A stretch of 64,000 nucleotides of DNA. Source: Bacilli bacterium (GTDB lineage Bacteria > Bacillota_I > Bacilli_A > RF39 > UBA660). The notes beneath the pieces were generated by a model. The model saw only the letters and a list, made by a program, of their open reading frames with translations, did no database searches and was not told the origin of the DNA. Where the stretch lies: NCBI GenBank assembly GCA_017511805.1, contig JAFWJA010000011.1, positions 1-64,000 of the forward strand. The letters are read 5' to 3'. A program made the translations under genes and the position numbers. Positions 32,268-53,571 of this stretch are shown piece after piece. Each line of letters starts with the position of its first letter. Position 1 is the first letter of the stretch.

Positions 32268-33926
32268 CTATTCTCCTATCTCTAATAAATCTTCAAATTC
32301 ACTTTTTTTCTCTGATTTATTTTCTTTTATTTTATTATAAAGATCATTTTCATCTAATATATCAATCTTTTCTTTATTTTTTATTTTATTTACATAGATA
32401 TTTCTTTTTTCTTCCCATAATTTTTCATCATAGAAGCATACTTTTATATCTTTTGATAATTTATTAATAAAGAAATTTTCTAAATTAAATAAATCTTCAA
32501 ATAATTCATTCAATATATTTATATTAGATGCAGTTATTATTATACCATCTTTTGAACCAGCTTTGATAGTACAATCAGATAATAAGTTAAAATATTTTCT
32601 ATCATCTAAATTATCTAATTGTTCCTCTAAATGATTCTTAAACTCTAAATATTCTTTTAATGACTCTTTATCAGCTTCTGCTAATATATTATTTAACCTT
32701 ATATCCATAAGTTCATTATAGATTTTGTATTTTTCATCAGGTTCTTTTTTTGTAATAGCATTTGTTTCTTTCTTTTCTTCAACTTCTATTTGTTTTTCCA
32801 CTTCTTTTTTATTCAAATCTAAAGAATTTTTATTTTTAATAACAACCTTTTCTACATTATCGACACGAACATTTGTTTTATTAACAATATCTAATATCCT
32901 TATTAATAATAAATCAAAATATATTTTTTTATTTTTTATATTTCTCATTTTATTGAGATAATCAGTTATTTCGAATGTAATATTAATTACATTATCTTTA
33001 CCTACTTTTTCAATTAGTTCATTATTTTTATTTATTTGATAGTTAATAAGATTATTTTTTAAATAATTAACTACATCTTCACAAATAAATGTATAATCTT
33101 TTCCTAATTCTTCAAATGAATCACTTATTTCAAAAACTTTATCCACATTATTATTGCATAAATTATCAAATAAATTTGTTATTTCATTATCACTAATTCT
33201 ACCATTTAAAAGTAATACATCATCTATCTTTATATCAGAGTTTGAATAAGAGTTTAATTGATCTAACAAACCAATTGCATCTCTTAATCCACCGGCAGAA
33301 TCAATACATATTTGATTAATTGCTTCATCTGTGATTTTAATATTTTCAGATTCACATATACTTTTAATTTTTTCAATCATTAATGGTTTAGGAATAGATT
33401 TAAACTCAAAATTTTGGCATCTAGATATAATAGTTAAAGGTACTTTTTGAATTTCTGTTGTTGCTAATATAAAAATTACATGTTTTGGAGGTTCTTCTAA
33501 TGTTTTTAATAAAGCATTGAATGCACCAGCTGATAACATATGAACCTCATCAATAATATAAATCTTATATTTAGAAAATGTAGGCATTAAAGAAATATGA
33601 TTCTTTATTTCTCTAATTTCATCTACTCCATTATTAGAAGCAGCATCCATTTCTATAATATCAACATTTTCATTATTATTACTCATTTTACAAATATCAC
33701 AATTTTCACAAGATATTCCATCTTTAACATTTTCACAGTTAATTGTTTTTGCAAAAATTTTAGCAATACTTGTTTTACCTGTACCTCTAGGACCTATAAA
33801 TAAATATGCATGTGTTAATTTATTATTCTTAATAGCATTTTTTAAAGTATTCACAACTATAGTTTGCCCACATACTTCATCAAAAGTTTTTGGTCTATAT
33901 TTTCTATATAATGCTTGGTATAACAT
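32268..33926 (-). CDS. dnaX: DNA polymerase III gamma/tau subunit
   Basis: 552 residues. Clamp-loader ATPase: LFIGPRGTGKTSIAKIFAK (Walker A), zinc module CENVKDGISCENCDIC, IIDEVHMLS (Walker B), LTIISRCQNFEF (SRC), then the collar domain and a charged C-terminal region that contacts the polymerase. AAAGGAAGATCAAC precedes the ATG. No obvious frameshift signal was found, so only tau is likely made. Confidence 0.97.
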   Translation of the reverse strand: MLYQALYRKYRPKTFDEVCGQTIVVNTLKNAIKNNKLTHAYLFIGPRGTGKTSIAKIFAKTINCENVKDGISCENCDICKMSNNNENVDIIEMDAASNNGVDEIREIKNHISLMPTFSKYKIYIIDEVHMLSAGAFNALLKTLEEPPKHVIFILATTEIQKVPLTIISRCQNFEFKSIPKPLMIEKIKSICESENIKITDEAINQICIDSAGGLRDAIGLLDQLNSYSNSDIKIDDVLLLNGRISDNEITNLFDNLCNNNVDKVFEISDSFEELGKDYTFICEDVVNYLKNNLINYQINKNNELIEKVGKDNVINITFEITDYLNKMRNIKNKKIYFDLLLIRILDIVNKTNVRVDNVEKVVIKNKNSLDLNKKEVEKQIEVEEKKETNAITKKEPDEKYKIYNELMDIRLNNILAEADKESLKEYLEFKNHLEEQLDNLDDRKYFNLLSDCTIKAGSKDGIIITASNINILNELFEDLFNLENFFINKLSKDIKVCFYDEKLWEEKRNIYVNKIKNKEKIDILDENDLYNKIKENKSEKKSEFEDLLEIGE

Positions 33927-34022
33927 GTTGATCTTCCTTTCAATATAATTATACCATATTTTCCTTTATTTATAATATAATTTAGATATATAAAACAAAA
34001 CATTTTTAATAAATCAAATTAA

Positions 34023-34076
34023 TGTTTCACGTGAAACATTGGTTAAAAAATATATCTATATGTTTCACGTGAAACA
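34023..34076. other. parS sites 1 and 2 (ParB binding)
   Basis: Perfect 16-bp palindromes TGTTTCACGTGAAACA at 34023-34038 and 34061-34076, 38 bp apart, in the dnaX-tadA gap. ParB loads at parS to form the partition complex that recruits SMC. Confidence 0.95.
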
Positions 34077-34086
34077 TAGAAAAATA

Positions 34087-34114
34087 AAAAAATATTTCCC
34101 GGGAAATATTTTTT
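34087..34114. other. Noc-binding site 1 in a 28-bp palindrome
   Basis: ATTTCCCGGGAAAT (34094-34107) is the Noc-binding consensus known from B. subtilis. The symmetry extends to A6/T6 on both sides, so the DNA also has the look of a bidirectional intrinsic terminator. A Noc-type gene lies at 52573. Confidence 0.9.
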
Positions 34115-34125
34115 GATTATTTTTC

Positions 34126-34165
34126 AAAAAAAATAATCAATGTTTCACGTGAAACATTGATTATT
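34126..34165. other. parS site 3 inside the tadA terminator
   Basis: parS at 34141-34156 is the centre of a perfect 34-bp inverted repeat (34132-34165). On the minus strand the stem begins at the tadA stop codon and is followed by eight T (34126-34133), so it is both a partition site and a rho-independent terminator. Confidence 0.85.
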
Positions 34166-34568
34166 ATCTTTTGTTTTTAAAAAAATTAGTTAGTACATCT
34201 GCAAAATTATCATTTTTTATATAATTATAATTAGGATTAGATTCTGTTTCTTCATTATTTTGTTTTATAAAATAATAAATGTTATTAATTCTCGCTTTTT
34301 TTATTATTTCTTTACACATAGAACAAGGTTCTAATGTAACATATAGAGCACAATTATTTAATCTCCAATTATTTAATTTCTTTGAAGCTTTTTTAATAAC
34401 GTCTATTTCAGCATGACCCAATACATTTTGTTTTTGTTCAGTTTTATTATAAGTTCTTGCAATAATTTTATTATTATAAACAATTAATGCAGCTATTGGT
34501 ACTTCATTATATCTTTGTGCTTTTAATACTAATTTATTTAATTCTTTTATTATTATTTCATTATTCAT
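34164..34568 (-). CDS. tadA: tRNA-specific adenosine deaminase
   Basis: 134 residues from the ATG at 34568, with GGAG seven bases ahead; the longer upstream frame runs through the SRP RNA gene. Deaminates A34 to inosine in tRNA-Arg(ACG). Zn site LGHAEIDVI and PCSMCKEII are present. Its ribosome site follows directly on the U run that ends the SRP RNA. B. subtilis has the same tadA-scr-dnaX neighbourhood with a different order of the RNA. Confidence 0.95.
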   Translation of the reverse strand: MNNEIIIKELNKLVLKAQRYNEVPIAALIVYNNKIIARTYNKTEQKQNVLGHAEIDVIKKASKKLNNWRLNNCALYVTLEPCSMCKEIIKKARINNIYYFIKQNNEETESNPNYNYIKNDNFADVLTNFFKNKR

Positions 34569-34581
34569 ATAAATTCTCCAT

Positions 34582-34660
34582 AAAAAAAAGCACACACGAA
34601 AATTAAATGTTAAGGCTGCTATATTTCTATCCTGACCTGGTTCCAAGTTTTTCGTTGTGC
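34582..34660 (-). ncRNA. ffs: Signal recognition particle RNA, small bacterial type
   Basis: Minus-strand RNA of about 71 nt plus U tail. It has the conserved SRP domain IV: ACCAGGTCAGGA on one side and AGCAGCC on the other around a loop. The ends GCACAACGAAAA and TTTTCGTGTGTGC pair to close the hairpin, followed by eight T as terminator. It binds Ffh to form SRP. The small type lacks the Alu domain of the long B. subtilis scRNA. The loop between AGGA and AGCAGCC (TAGAAATAT) departs from the common GGAA-type tetraloop context. Confidence 0.9.
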
Positions 34661-34666
34661 AAATAT

Positions 34667-34695
34667 AATATACTATGTTTTAATTTAAATGTCAA
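34667..34695 (-). promoter_or_regulatory. Promoter of the SRP RNA
   Basis: TTGACA (34690-34695), 17 bp, TATATT (34667-34672), read leftward, with the RNA 5' end predicted 7 bases further at 34660. Confidence 0.85.
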
Positions 34696-34709
34696 TTTTA
34701 TATTATATA

Positions 34710-34894
34710 TGTTTCACGTGAAACATTGATATTTACTTCTTATGTATGTTTCACGTGAAACATTGATATTTACTTCTTATGTATGTTTCACGTGAAACAT
34801 TGATATTTACTTCTTATGTATGTTTCACGTGAAACATTGGGTGTGAATATACTTTTATGTTTCACGTGAAACATTAATTTTTTTATGAATAATT
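34710..34894. repeat. parS sites 4-8 in a 37-bp tandem array
   Basis: parS copies at 34710, 34747, 34784, 34821 and 34858 are spaced by exactly 37 bp. The first three units are identical over the full 37 bp; units 4 and 5 keep parS but differ between sites. The array lies upstream of the SRP RNA promoter. Confidence 0.95.
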
Positions 34895-34907
34895 AATTTA
34901 AAGTAAT

Positions 34908-34937
34908 AAAAAAATATTTCCCGGGAAATATTTTTTT
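34908..34937. other. Noc-binding site 2 in a 30-bp palindrome (gyrA terminator)
   Basis: ATTTCCCGGGAAAT at 34916-34929 within a perfect 30-bp inverted repeat ending in T7 on both strands. It is the first terminator-like structure after the leftward gyrA stop codon (34979). Confidence 0.88.
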
Positions 34938-34952
34938 ATATTTTTTTTGATA

Positions 34953-34968
34953 TGTTTCACGTGAAACA
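34953..34968. other. parS site 9
   Basis: Perfect TGTTTCACGTGAAACA eleven bases beyond the gyrA stop codon. With the Noc site, tandem array and SRP promoter it fills the 34661-34978 gap; nothing else was seen in that stretch. Confidence 0.95.
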
Positions 34969-34978
34969 TTAGTTATTA

Positions 34979-37459
34979 TTATTCTTCAGATGTAGGCTCT
35001 TGTTGTTCTAGATTTTCAGTTTGCTCTGATTCCTCTTCTTTTTTAGAAATTGATACAGTTGCAACTTTTTGATTATCTTTTAGATTAATTAATCTTACCC
35101 CTTGTGTTACTCTACTCATTTTAGATACTTGTTCAAGTGGAATTCTTATTACTATACCACTATCAGTGATAATAATTAGATCAGAATCTTGTTCAACTTT
35201 ATTAATTGATACTAAATTACCGTTCTTTTCAGTAACATTTAATCCTTTAACACCTTTACTTCCTCTATGAGTAAGTCTATATTCACAAACATTTGTACGT
35301 TTTCCATAACCCTTCTCAGTTATTATAAGGATTTCATCTTCTTCTGATACTACCTCTGCACTTATACAATCAGTTTTATCATCTATATCAATACCTTTAA
35401 CACCAGATGCAGTTCTTCCAAGTACTCTTATTTCATTTTCATCAAACTTAACCATTCTACCATTTGATGCACCTATTAATACTTGATCATTACCACTTGT
35501 TAAGAATACAGTTAATAATTCATCATCTTCTTTTAATCCAATTGCTATTTTACCTGTTATTCTTATATTTTCAAACTCACTAATTGAAGTTCTCTTAACA
35601 AGGCCTCGTTTTGTTACGAATGTGATTAATTTATTTTCTATACCTTCTTCATTTCTTACAGGAAGTATAGCTTTAACTAATTCTTCTTTTTCTATTGGTA
35701 ATAAGTTAATTATTGGTAATCCTTTAGCTTGTCTACTAAATTCTGGTACTTTATAACCCTTGATTCTGTATACTTTTCCTTTATTTGTAAAGAATAATAC
35801 ATCATCATGAGTCTTTAATGTAACCATTTTTTCAACAAAGTCTTCTTCATTAGTTGTCATTCCTTTAATTCCAACTCCACCTTTATTTTGTACCTTATAA
35901 GTATCAATTGGTAAACGTTTAATATATCCTTTATTAGTTAAATTAATAATGATATCCTCAACTGGAATTAATGATTCATCTTCGATATAGTCGATTGCTG
36001 TCATATCTATAGTTGTTCTTCTATCATCTGAATATTTATTCTTAATTTCAATTAATTCTTCTTTAATTATAGCTAAAACCTTTTCTTCACTAGCTAGAAT
36101 TGATTTGTATTCTTCAATTTTCTTTAATAATTCAGCTAATTCTGATTCAATCTTATCCCTTTCTAATCCAGTTAATCTTCTTAACTTCATTTCTAGAATA
36201 GCATCAGATTGTATGCTAGTTAAAGCAAAATTACTCATTAATTTATCTTTTGCTTCTTGATCAGTCTTAGATCCTCTAATTATTTTAATTACTTCATCAA
36301 TATGATCTAACGCTATTTTTAAACCTTCTAAGATGTGTACTCTATCTTCTGCTTTCTTTAAGTCATATTGAGTTCTTCTAGTAATTATTTCTTTTTGATA
36401 ATCAACATATTTAGCTATTATTTCCTTTAAACCAAGTATTTTTGGTACCCCTTTATCAAGCATTAAGAAAATAATACCAAAATTTGTTTGAAAATCTGTA
36501 TGTTTATATAAATTATTTAAAATTACTTGTGGATTAGCATCTTTTTTAAGAGTAATTGTTATTTTTACTCCTTCTTTTAAGTCTGTATGGTAATCAGATA
36601 TGCCATCTATAACCTTATTATGTACTAATTCAGCAACTTTATTCTTTAATGTTTGTGTATTAACACCATATGGAACTTCATCAATAATAATATAATGTTT
36701 ACCATCTTTTTCTTCAATTGTTGCCCTACTTCTTATTGTTATTGATCCTCTACCTGTTTCATATGCATTTTTAATACCACTATTTCCTAGAATTATACCT
36801 CCTGTTGGAAAATCAGGACCTTTAACATAATTCATTAATCCTAATGTATCTATTTCAGGATTATCTATATATGCTACACAACCATCAATTACTTCTCCTA
36901 AGTTATGTGGTGGAATATTTGTTGCCATACCAACGGCAATACCCATAGTACCATTAACTAATATATTAGGAAATCTTGATGGTAAAACTGTTGGTTCTGT
37001 TTCAGATTCATCAAAGTTTGGTGTCATATCAACAGTTTCTTTTTGTATATCTCTTAATAATTCTAATGATATTTTTGAAAGTCTTGCTTCTGTATAACGC
37101 ATTGCTGCTGCTCCATAACCTTCAATATTACCAAAATTACCATGTCCATCTACTAAACAATTTCTATAACTGAAGTCTTGAGCCATGTGAACCATTGCTT
37201 CATATATAGAAGAATCTCCATGTGGATGGTATTTACCCATAACATCTCCGACAATTCTTGCCGATTTTCTATGAGGTTTGTCTGGTGTGTATCCTGATTC
37301 ATACATTGACCAAAGTATTCTTCTATGTACTGGTTTTAAACCATCTCTTAAATCAGGCAATGCACGAGCTACTATAACACTCATTGAATATTCTAGGAAT
37401 GATGTTTCAATTTCTTTAACTATGTTATTTTCTTGTAATCTATCTCTACTATGATCCAT
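34979..37459 (-). CDS. gyrA: DNA gyrase subunit A
   Basis: 826 residues. ATP-dependent negative supercoiling with Gyr[21 protein letters not shown], catalytic Tyr in [24 protein letters not shown] (quinolone region), then the beta-pinwheel C-terminal domain with GyrA-box-like QAKGLPI. An acidic tail ([14 protein letters not shown]) ends the protein. GGAGGTTAGAAT precedes the ATG. Downstream of gyrB by 11 bases. Confidence 0.98.
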
Positions 37460-42512: not shown

Positions 42513-43883
42513 TTATAGTTTTTTCTTAATTTCTTCTAAAATTTGTTCTAATTGTTTATTAGTTTTTAACTCATTTGTTATCCTATCACAGGAACTCATT
42601 ACTGTTGAATGATCTCTTCCACCAAATTCCATACCTATTCTTGGGAAAGATTCATCTGTTAGTTGTCTACATAGATATATTGCTATATGTCTAGGAAAAG
42701 CTATTGTAGATACCCTTTTCTTTGATTTTAAGTCTTCCACAGTAATATTATAGTAATCTGCGACTACTCTTTGAATCTTAATTATATCATTTGTTGTACT
42801 AGTTGCATTATGTACTGTACCTTTTAAAGCCTCTATTGCTAGATCTAATGTTATTTCTTCTTCAAAGAATATTGTGGAATAAGCACATACTCTTGTTAAA
42901 GCTCCTTCTAGATTTCTTACATCTGACTGGCATGTATTAGCTATAAAATCAATAACATCATCTGAGATATGCTGTGCAAAATTCATATTAGCTATTTTAT
43001 TTCTTAATATTTTCTTTCTTAATTCGTTATCTGGTGGAAAAATATTTACTTTTAATCCCCAGCTAAATCTAGTTTTTAACCTATCTTCTAGGTTTTTTAA
43101 GTCTTCTGGTGAATTATCACTTGAAATTATTATTTGTTTCTTACTATCAAATAATGTATTAAAGGTGTGGAAAAACTCTTCTTGAGACTTTGGAGCATTT
43201 CCTAAAAACTGTATATCATCTATTATTAATACATCTATATTTCTATATTTATCTTTAAATGCATCTGTTTTATCAAAGTTAGTACTTTCACTATTACGTC
43301 TATTTAATCCTAAGAAATCTGTTACAAATGTTTCTGATGTTACATAAAGTACTCTTTTATTTGAGTTTTGCACAATATAATTACCTATAGAATGCATCAA
43401 ATGTGTTTTACCTAATCCACTATTTCCATATATAAATAAAGGATTATACATTTTTCCAGGGTTTTCTGCTACTGCTAAAGCTGTTGCTTGTGCAAATCTA
43501 TTACTTTCCCCTACTATAAAATTTTCAAAGGTATAATCAGGATTTAAATTAGCTTTTTTATAACTATTATAAGGAACTCCTTCTTGTGTTTCTTCTTCAT
43601 TGATTACTATTTTTTCAGTCTTTTCTTGTTTTTCTATTTCGTTTTCTAATACAAATTTTAAATTGAAGTTTGTTCCAGTTACGTCATTTAATACTTCATC
43701 AATAAGATCTTTATAACTTTCAGCAAGGTGTTTTTTATGGGCAGCTGTAGGAACAATTATAATAGCCTCTTCATCTAATGAATAAAGATGAGTATCTTTA
43801 AACCACGTATCATAACCTAACGAAGATAATCTTTTCTTTATTAGACTAAGAAACTTATTCCATATTATTTCATTATTATCCAT
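42513..43883 (-). CDS. dnaA: Chromosomal replication initiator DnaA
   Basis: 456 residues from the ATG at 43883 (GGAGGTGTTAGTT ahead). Domain I (~1-80), short linker, AAA+ domain III with IYGNSGLGKTHLMHS and IDDIQFLGNA, and domain IV with the signature FPRHIAIYLCRQLTDESFPRIG and GGRDHSTVMSSCD that reads DnaA boxes. Leftward, next to oriC. Confidence 0.98.
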   Translation of the reverse strand: MDNNEIIWNKFLSLIKKRLSSLGYDTWFKDTHLYSLDEEAIIIVPTAAHKKHLAESYKDLIDEVLNDVTGTNFNLKFVLENEIEKQEKTEKIVINEEETQEGVPYNSYKKANLNPDYTFENFIVGESNRFAQATALAVAENPGKMYNPLFIYGNSGLGKTHLMHSIGNYIVQNSNKRVLYVTSETFVTDFLGLNRRNSESTNFDKTDAFKDKYRNIDVLIIDDIQFLGNAPKSQEEFFHTFNTLFDSKKQIIISSDNSPEDLKNLEDRLKTRFSWGLKVNIFPPDNELRKKILRNKIANMNFAQHISDDVIDFIANTCQSDVRNLEGALTRVCAYSTIFFEEEITLDLAIEALKGTVHNATSTTNDIIKIQRVVADYYNITVEDLKSKKRVSTIAFPRHIAIYLCRQLTDESFPRIGMEFGGRDHSTVMSSCDRITNELKTNKQLEQILEEIKKKL

Positions 43884-43923
43884 AACTAACACCTCCCCCT
43901 GTGTAGTTTAATTTATAAGTTAA

Positions 43924-52526: not shown

Positions 52527-52572
52527 ATTATATTATATATATAGAATAAAAGAATAAGAAGTGAGTGATATT

Positions 52573-53571
52573 ATGAATAATAACAATATGGAAAAAGAAA
52601 TAGTATTTGTATCATTAGATGACATAATACCTAATAGATTTCAACCAAGATTATCTTTTGATGAAGAAGCATTAAATGAATTAGCTAAATCTATTAGACA
52701 ACATGGTATTATTCAACCTTTAGTACTTAGAAAAGTAGGTACTAAATATGAAATAATAGCTGGTGAAAGAAGATACAAAGCTTCATATATCGCAGGATTA
52801 ACTAAAGTACCTGCAGTTATAATTGATTTAAATGATAATGAATCAGCTGAAGTAGCTATTGTTGAAAACATACAAAGAAGAAACCTTTCTCCAATAGAAG
52901 AGGCTAAATCATATAAAAAATTACTAGATAGAGGATATCTTACTCAAGATGAACTTGCTTCACGTATGGGTAAAACTCAAGGTGCTATTTCTAATAAATT
53001 AAGATTATTAAATTTATCACAAGAAGTTCAAGATGCACTTCTTAATAATCAAATTAGTGAAAGACATGCTAGAAGTTTATTAAGACTTGAAAATGAAGAT
53101 GAACAACAAGAAGTGCTAAGTAAAATAATAAATGAAAGATTAAATGTAAGAGATACAGATAATTTAATAAATAGTTATGTTACTGGAGAAGAATATACAC
53201 CATTATCAAATAGTTCAAGTGTAGAACCTAATGATATGAGTTTTAATACATTCTTTGAAAACAAACCAGAAGAAGATGAAGAAGAAATATTAACAATTGA
53301 GGATAAAACTTTCCCAGCTATTGAGGATAAAGTATATCCTGCTATAGAAGATAAGACATATCCAGCAATTGAAGATAAAGTATTTACTCCAATTGAAAAT
53401 ACATCTAAATCATTATTAGGATCTAAAAAAGATTATAAAACAGTTTTAAATACTAAAGTAAGAAACTTTGTAGAAAGTCTTAAAGAAGAAGGAATAGAAG
53501 TAACTTACGATAGTTATGAATTTGATAAATTATTTGAATTTATAATAAAAATAAATAAAGATACTGATTAA
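52573..53571 (+). CDS. noc: Nucleoid occlusion protein Noc (ParB family)
   Basis: 332 residues (ATG at 52573; a GTG at 52561 is possible). CTP-binding ParB fold with GERR (64-67) and ENIQRRNL (~98-105), then the HTH region. Three residues that separate Noc from ParB specificity are of the Noc kind: Q136 in GKTQGAIS, K142 in NKLRLL, R164 in SERHAR. The N-terminal amphipathic membrane helix of B. subtilis Noc is absent. A linker holds about four octapeptide repeats (PAIEDKV/T-type, ~242-275) before the C-terminal dimer domain. No parA or second parB adjoins. Confidence 0.88.
   Translation: MNNNNMEKEIVFVSLDDIIPNRFQPRLSFDEEALNELAKSIRQHGIIQPLVLRKVGTKYEIIAGERRYKASYIAGLTKVPAVIIDLNDNESAEVAIVENIQRRNLSPIEEAKSYKKLLDRGYLTQDELASRMGKTQGAISNKLRLLNLSQEVQDALLNNQISERHARSLLRLENEDEQQEVLSKIINERLNVRDTDNLINSYVTGEEYTPLSNSSSVEPNDMSFNTFFENKPEEDEEEILTIEDKTFPAIEDKVYPAIEDKTYPAIEDKVFTPIENTSKSLLGSKKDYKTVLNTKVRNFVESLKEEGIEVTYDSYEFDKLFEFIIKINKDTD

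Follow-up and report, generated by a model that had tools for sequence, protein, structure and literature searches.

Rho-independent terminators that double as sites for another process have been described in Neisseria, where DNA uptake sequences act in this way (PMC2397512). This is the nearest precedent for the parS site discussed below: in both, a protein-recognised motif of genome maintenance forms the terminator stem after genes. The Neisseria stem is built from two inverted copies of the motif and occurs many times genome-wide, whereas a parS stem has a single self-palindrome as its core, and the sites are few and centromeric. Effects of parS or ParB on transcription reported in other organisms concern promoters or nearby expression, not termination (PMC7022226), and in the open-access literature we found no report of parS or of Noc-binding sites (NBS) as terminators. 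For the ParB paralogue Noc, NBS specificity depends on Q173, K179 and/or K184, and R201, one lysine being enough (PMC7383237); B. subtilis has scattered NBS and a Noc that requires its N-terminal amphipathic helix (PMC8429893).

The window, a stretch of 64,000 nucleotides, covers the origin region of a Bacilli MAG (genome 1.45 Mb, completeness 91%); among named genomes, the nearest relatives are Bacilli MAGs from the ruminant gut. On the minus strand, the order is dnaA, gyrB-gyrA (gyrB assigned by position), a site cluster of about 1 kb with nine parS and two NBS, a small SRP RNA gene, tadA and dnaX. The features of interest are:

42513-43892: dnaA
34979-37459, minus strand: gyrA
34953-34968: parS9, the first site after the gyrA stop
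34906-34939: NBS2, 34-bp palindrome with A7/T7, core 34916-34929; candidate hairpin after gyrA, -4.4 kcal/mol when trimmed
34710-34873: parS4 to parS8, five exact sites with a 37-bp period
34667-34695, minus strand: putative SRP RNA promoter, TTGACA-17-TATATT
34572-34671, minus strand: gene for the small SRP RNA, within the parS cluster (Rfam RF00169, 54.3 bits)
34164-34568, minus strand: tadA, read from an ATG at 34568 (listed ORF 34164-34646); match below the NCBIfam cut-off
34132-34165, minus strand: parS3, perfect 34-bp palindrome, core 34141-34156; hairpin with a T6-T8 tail after tadA
34126-34133, minus strand: T8 tract on the tadA strand, two T within the stem
34087-34114: NBS1, 28-bp palindrome with A/T flanks, core 34094-34107; second hairpin after tadA, weak at -7.1 kcal/mol
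34061-34076: parS2
34023-34038: parS1
32268-33926, minus strand: dnaX, the next gene beyond the tadA-end sites

As in chromosomal ParABS systems such as Spo0J/Soj of B. subtilis (parS TGTTNCACGTGAAACA), exact parS consensus sites lie near oriC and the genome encodes parA-parB (contig C12). The 16-bp palindrome of chromosomal parS, TGTTNCACGTGRAACA, is present in nine exact copies (TGTTTCACGTGAAACA, at 34023, 34061, 34141, 34710, 34747, 34784, 34821, 34858 and 34953), accompanied by two exact NBS (ATTTCCCGGGAAAT, at 34094 and 34916). All nine parS and both NBS fall between gyrA and dnaX; with up to two mismatches allowed, shuffling leads one to expect 0.01 parS and 0.18 NBS. What sets the locus apart from described ParABS systems is that parS sites here are found at gene ends, within extended covarying palindromes with U-tails. 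The exact 37-bp spacing of parS4 to parS8 corresponds to about 3.5 helical turns, and the array lies immediately upstream of the SRP RNA promoter.

That parS3 forms the core of a perfect 34-bp hairpin running from the tadA stop into T8, as the earlier note had claimed, was borne out with one refinement. The palindrome takes in two bases of the stop codon (34164-34166, minus strand), and two T of the T8 tract (34133-34126) are inside the stem, so that the free tail is T6. Folded on the minus strand with its flanks, the site reaches -21.1 kcal/mol (z -6.8), and none of the shuffled sequences folds as well. It thus has the form of an intrinsic terminator, a stable hairpin followed by a U-tract on the tadA strand, and in a terminator scan of positions 33000-36000 it was the sole terminator-like locus (two strand hits against 0.3 expected). 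Bidirectional intrinsic terminators are likewise made of A tract, hairpin and T tract; here the core of the hairpin is a predicted segregation-protein site. These features support parS3 as a bifunctional parS/terminator for tadA, for which both ParB binding and termination are predicted.

Relatives provide compensatory changes of the kind expected for terminator stems. For parS within 25 nt of a stop codon, flank pairing exceeds that of shuffles at positions 2-8 after gyrA and at positions 3-6 after tadA. The first flanking pair is nearly always A-T, and inner positions use three or four pair types (AT, TA, CG, GC). The strand is also informative: within 25 nt of the gyrA stop, the longest T run next to parS averages 3.58 on the sense strand vs 2.68 on the antisense strand (p=0.005), and this bias is absent for parS more than 40 nt from the gyrA stop. 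With a more permissive T-tail rule the sense bias is absent and the antisense strand even seems favoured, since symmetric A/T flanks satisfy such a rule on either strand and counts are inflated by repeated arrays; longest T runs and calls based on folding were used instead. Five relatives (L181, L184, L185, L186 and L057) have a T-tailed parS at the tadA stop, with stems that differ among them. Weaker covarying extended palindromes are also found at parS far from gene ends; termination is therefore not the sole cause of extension.

In other Bacilli families, a few terminator-like parS hairpins follow genes read as dacA and recR. At eight loci in these families (L261, L262, L269, L274, L278, L280, L284 and L287), the distance between parS and the stop of a gene read by eye as serS, dacA or recR is at most 20 nt, and the hairpins of L261, L262 and L269 are T-tailed.

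We then asked how often such sites occur at gyrA ends and whether ordinary terminators accompany them. The sample comprised 106 downstream regions (nearly all one per genus) and 80 from named genomes, and terminators were called by folding at 164 non-redundant gyrA ends in four groups. Of 100 genomes with enough sequence, 74 have the start of a parS or NBS no more than 80 nt from the gyrA stop. With a caller that is heuristic and has false positives (ordinary hits on the antisense strand in 24 of 100 at -5 kcal/mol), an ordinary terminator was present at 3 of 24 ends carrying a U-tailed parS hairpin, compared with 48 of 63 with untailed parS, 15 of 19 with NBS only and 52 of 58 without a site. 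Thus ordinary terminators tend to be missing at ends with a U-tailed parS hairpin and not at ends with an NBS. Uncorrected for the tree, Fisher tests gave p=2e-11 for U-tailed parS against no site and p=7e-8 against untailed parS; among 100 genomes, almost every one from a different genus, the replacement test gave p=2.4e-7. At least 11 changes of the trait are placed on the GyrA tree, and about six of ten independent pairs go in opposite directions and none the same way; the median p of about 0.03, with a range over pairings (0.008-0.125) that crosses 0.05, is marginal to modest and is to be read beside the uncorrected tests. The untailed parS control showed no such effect on the GyrA tree (p=0.5). 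At gyrA ends of relatives, then, parS hairpins appear to stand in for other terminators. The corresponding counts at tadA ends (0 with both, 23 with an ordinary terminator, 13 with a site, 81 with none) were not significant (p=0.07). The ordinary gyrA terminators of many relatives (L122, L119 and L159 among them) overlap the stop codon, their 5' arm seemingly lying in Glu/Lys-rich last codons.

The clade formed by the window and five relatives (L181, L182, L183, L184 and L242), as defined by tree and alignment, shows reciprocal loss. In L181 to L184, gyrA is followed by stem, parS, stem and T, the stems being AAGTTAA, AAGTATA, AAACAA and GAACAA, respectively. L242 has kept a long hairpin and T6 after gyrA and has lost CACGTG, TTAT replacing ACGT at the core. 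In the window, the reverse is seen: parS9 is kept and its hairpin arms and tail are lost, making it a non-terminator here with T-tailed hairpin counterparts in L181 to L184. On the most parsimonious reading, the ancestor of the clade would have been bifunctional and each function would have been lost once, other orders being possible. These sister-genome losses represent ready-made single-function variants. Outside the clade, altered-core parS-like hairpins with T tails at the gyrA end of L065 (TGTTCCGTGTGGAACA) and at the tadA end of L145 (TGTTTCACATGAAACA) are possible further cases of parS lost and hairpin kept.

The NBS palindromes present a different picture. The description of both as 28-30-bp palindromes with A/T runs holds for NBS1 (28 bp); NBS2 turned out to span 34 bp. 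On the minus strand with flanks, NBS1 folds at -7.7 kcal/mol (z -1.6) and NBS2 at -10.9 kcal/mol (z -3.2), the latter dropping to -4.4 kcal/mol without the U-tract in the stem. In NBS RNA, the GC-rich centre becomes the loop, and the stem without U-tract amounts to only -2.6 to -4.4 kcal/mol; neither NBS passes the terminator scan of 33000-36000. The family-wide flank is usually AAATT/AATTT, and its conservation is mostly that of a sequence consensus, AAATT/AATTT or AAAAT/ATTTT. As for the proposed check on flank conservation, T runs are kept near the clade of the window and are not kept across the family; no sense-strand bias of NBS T runs was found across relatives, and the A/T flanks persist in relatives beside a strong parS terminator. 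With an ordinary terminator still present at most NBS-only gyrA ends, NBS as a general terminator was rejected. To judge by these sequences, the NBS palindromes serve mainly as Noc-type binding sites whose consensus extends into the AT flanks, and any terminator role would be secondary and weak. In many relatives (G110, G095, G049, G009, G068), parS and NBS form pairs about 20-40 bp apart, comparable to 34061/34094 and 34916/34953 in the window, and in L166 NBS alternate with parS-like units in an array whose period is about 79 bp.

We propose that parS3 acts in two forms, DNA and RNA. In the DNA duplex, its 16-bp palindrome would let ParB load at the origin-proximal centromere; in the transcript, the palindrome and its complementary flanks would fold into a long hairpin followed by U, the intrinsic terminator of tadA. 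In this Bacilli family, parS sites beside gene ends would have been recruited repeatedly to replace ordinary terminators, with gyrA ends as the clearest case, and parS terminators probably insulate the ParB-loading cluster from transcription. The structure, where it lies and on which strand, the covarying flanks, the substitution for ordinary terminators and the reciprocal losses are all seen in the sequences and their comparison; from them we infer actual termination, ParB binding and insulation. We regard this explanation, with parS recruited at gene ends and NBS serving primarily as Noc-type sites, as likely. The earlier idea of one DNA element serving both as transcription stop and as segregation or Noc site is supported for parS, by location, U-tail strand, covariation, replacement and reciprocal loss, and is not supported for NBS as a general role.

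The palindromes might instead be a by-product of replication, lengthened with no selection for termination when cores fold back and a template switch turns one flank into a copy of the other. Such switching is reported to create perfect stems in one step (PMC8794818), and it would account for covarying extensions both in other Bacilli families and at array sites remote from gene ends; extensions of at least 4 are also rarer for parS inside coding sequence (2 of 19 vs 156 of 423). However, it does not predict that sense T bias is restricted to stop-adjacent sites, that the ordinary terminator is missing only where the hairpin is tailed, or that the L242 hairpin survives loss of the parS core. 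We consider it unlikely as a full replacement for the dual-form explanation, but as the source of the stems, alongside a terminator role, template-switch mutation is plausible. Chance has a simpler claim, since palindromes between A and T runs are common in DNA of 25% GC; weak hairpins are indeed frequent in A/T-rich DNA, and the z of NBS1 is unexceptional. It is hardly credible for parS3, with its z of -6.8 and no shuffle as good, or in view of covariation repeated in relatives.

It is improbable that the segregation machinery accounts for the extended palindrome as a feature of the DNA (a longer ParB or Noc contact, or a cruciform), with its likeness to a terminator being incidental. The consensus followed by NBS flanks and the nearly invariant A-T pair next to parS fit such a feature, yet parS flanks past the first pair vary while remaining complementary, which points to structure rather than base contacts, and the pattern of ordinary terminators and the sense bias would be left unexplained. 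A more local question is whether NBS2 is the working gyrA terminator in the window, having taken over once parS9 lost its arms. The earlier note had called it the first terminator after gyrA; parS9 in fact lies between gyrA and NBS2, and what is left of that claim is a weak default candidate. NBS2 has in its favour A7/T7, a 34-bp palindrome and the fact that no other hairpin between gyrA and the SRP promoter has a T tract. Against it are the weak stem without U-tract, the like A/T flanks in relatives whose parS already resembles a gyrA terminator, and the retention of ordinary terminators at 15 of 19 NBS-only ends. On balance we find this takeover rather doubtful.

The protein side concerns one further gene of the window:

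52561-53571, plus strand: Noc-like ParB paralogue, specificity residues Q, K, N and R from an aligned motif read

As in B. subtilis, the NBS consensus is present, the protein has Noc-type specificity residues (Q, K, N, R), and noc is directly 3' of rsmG. Unlike in B. subtilis, there are only two NBS, both in the parS cluster (a genome search with up to one mismatch found none beyond them), and no N-terminal amphipathic membrane helix was seen by eye in the window Noc or in most of 29 relatives. These proteins mostly begin about 10-20 residues ahead of the PNRFQPR motif, almost at the ParB domain. NBS per genome in the family mostly number 0-6; the 53 that share a contig with gyrA all lie no more than 17 kb from it, 17 more are on other contigs, and NBS are often about 20-40 bp from parS. 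The spread over the chromosome typical of nucleoid occlusion is therefore not seen, and the few NBS near gyrA, together with a Noc without the B. subtilis membrane helix, make nucleoid occlusion, as suggested earlier, doubtful as a genome-wide role. A centromere-linked role of Noc is more likely, although a membrane anchor elsewhere in the protein is possible. The Noc-like proteins of relatives (L075-L104) often have long variable C-terminal extensions, with open frames of about 340-630 aa in those read.

More broadly, and tentatively, since we put it somewhat short of an even chance, centromere sites may be a recurrent source of terminators, one palindrome being selected for both ParB loading and RNA polymerase release, so that the centromere insulates itself; Noc/NBS would then be a centromere accessory rather than an occlusion system in this Bacilli family. 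If true, a single shared DNA element couples chromosome segregation to transcription, mutual help or hindrance between ParB loading and RNA polymerase termination becomes testable, and mutating parS palindromes could also alter termination.

Genome-wide, one parS, the tenth, lies outside the cluster, on an 18.3-kb phage-like contig, C13 (L014:1501-1516). It is directly 3' of the stop of a lower-collar/adaptor gene, and the same contig encodes an upper collar connector (PHROGs). A literature search for a link between phi29 and parS found nothing. The contig may represent a podovirus-like phage that borrows host ParB.
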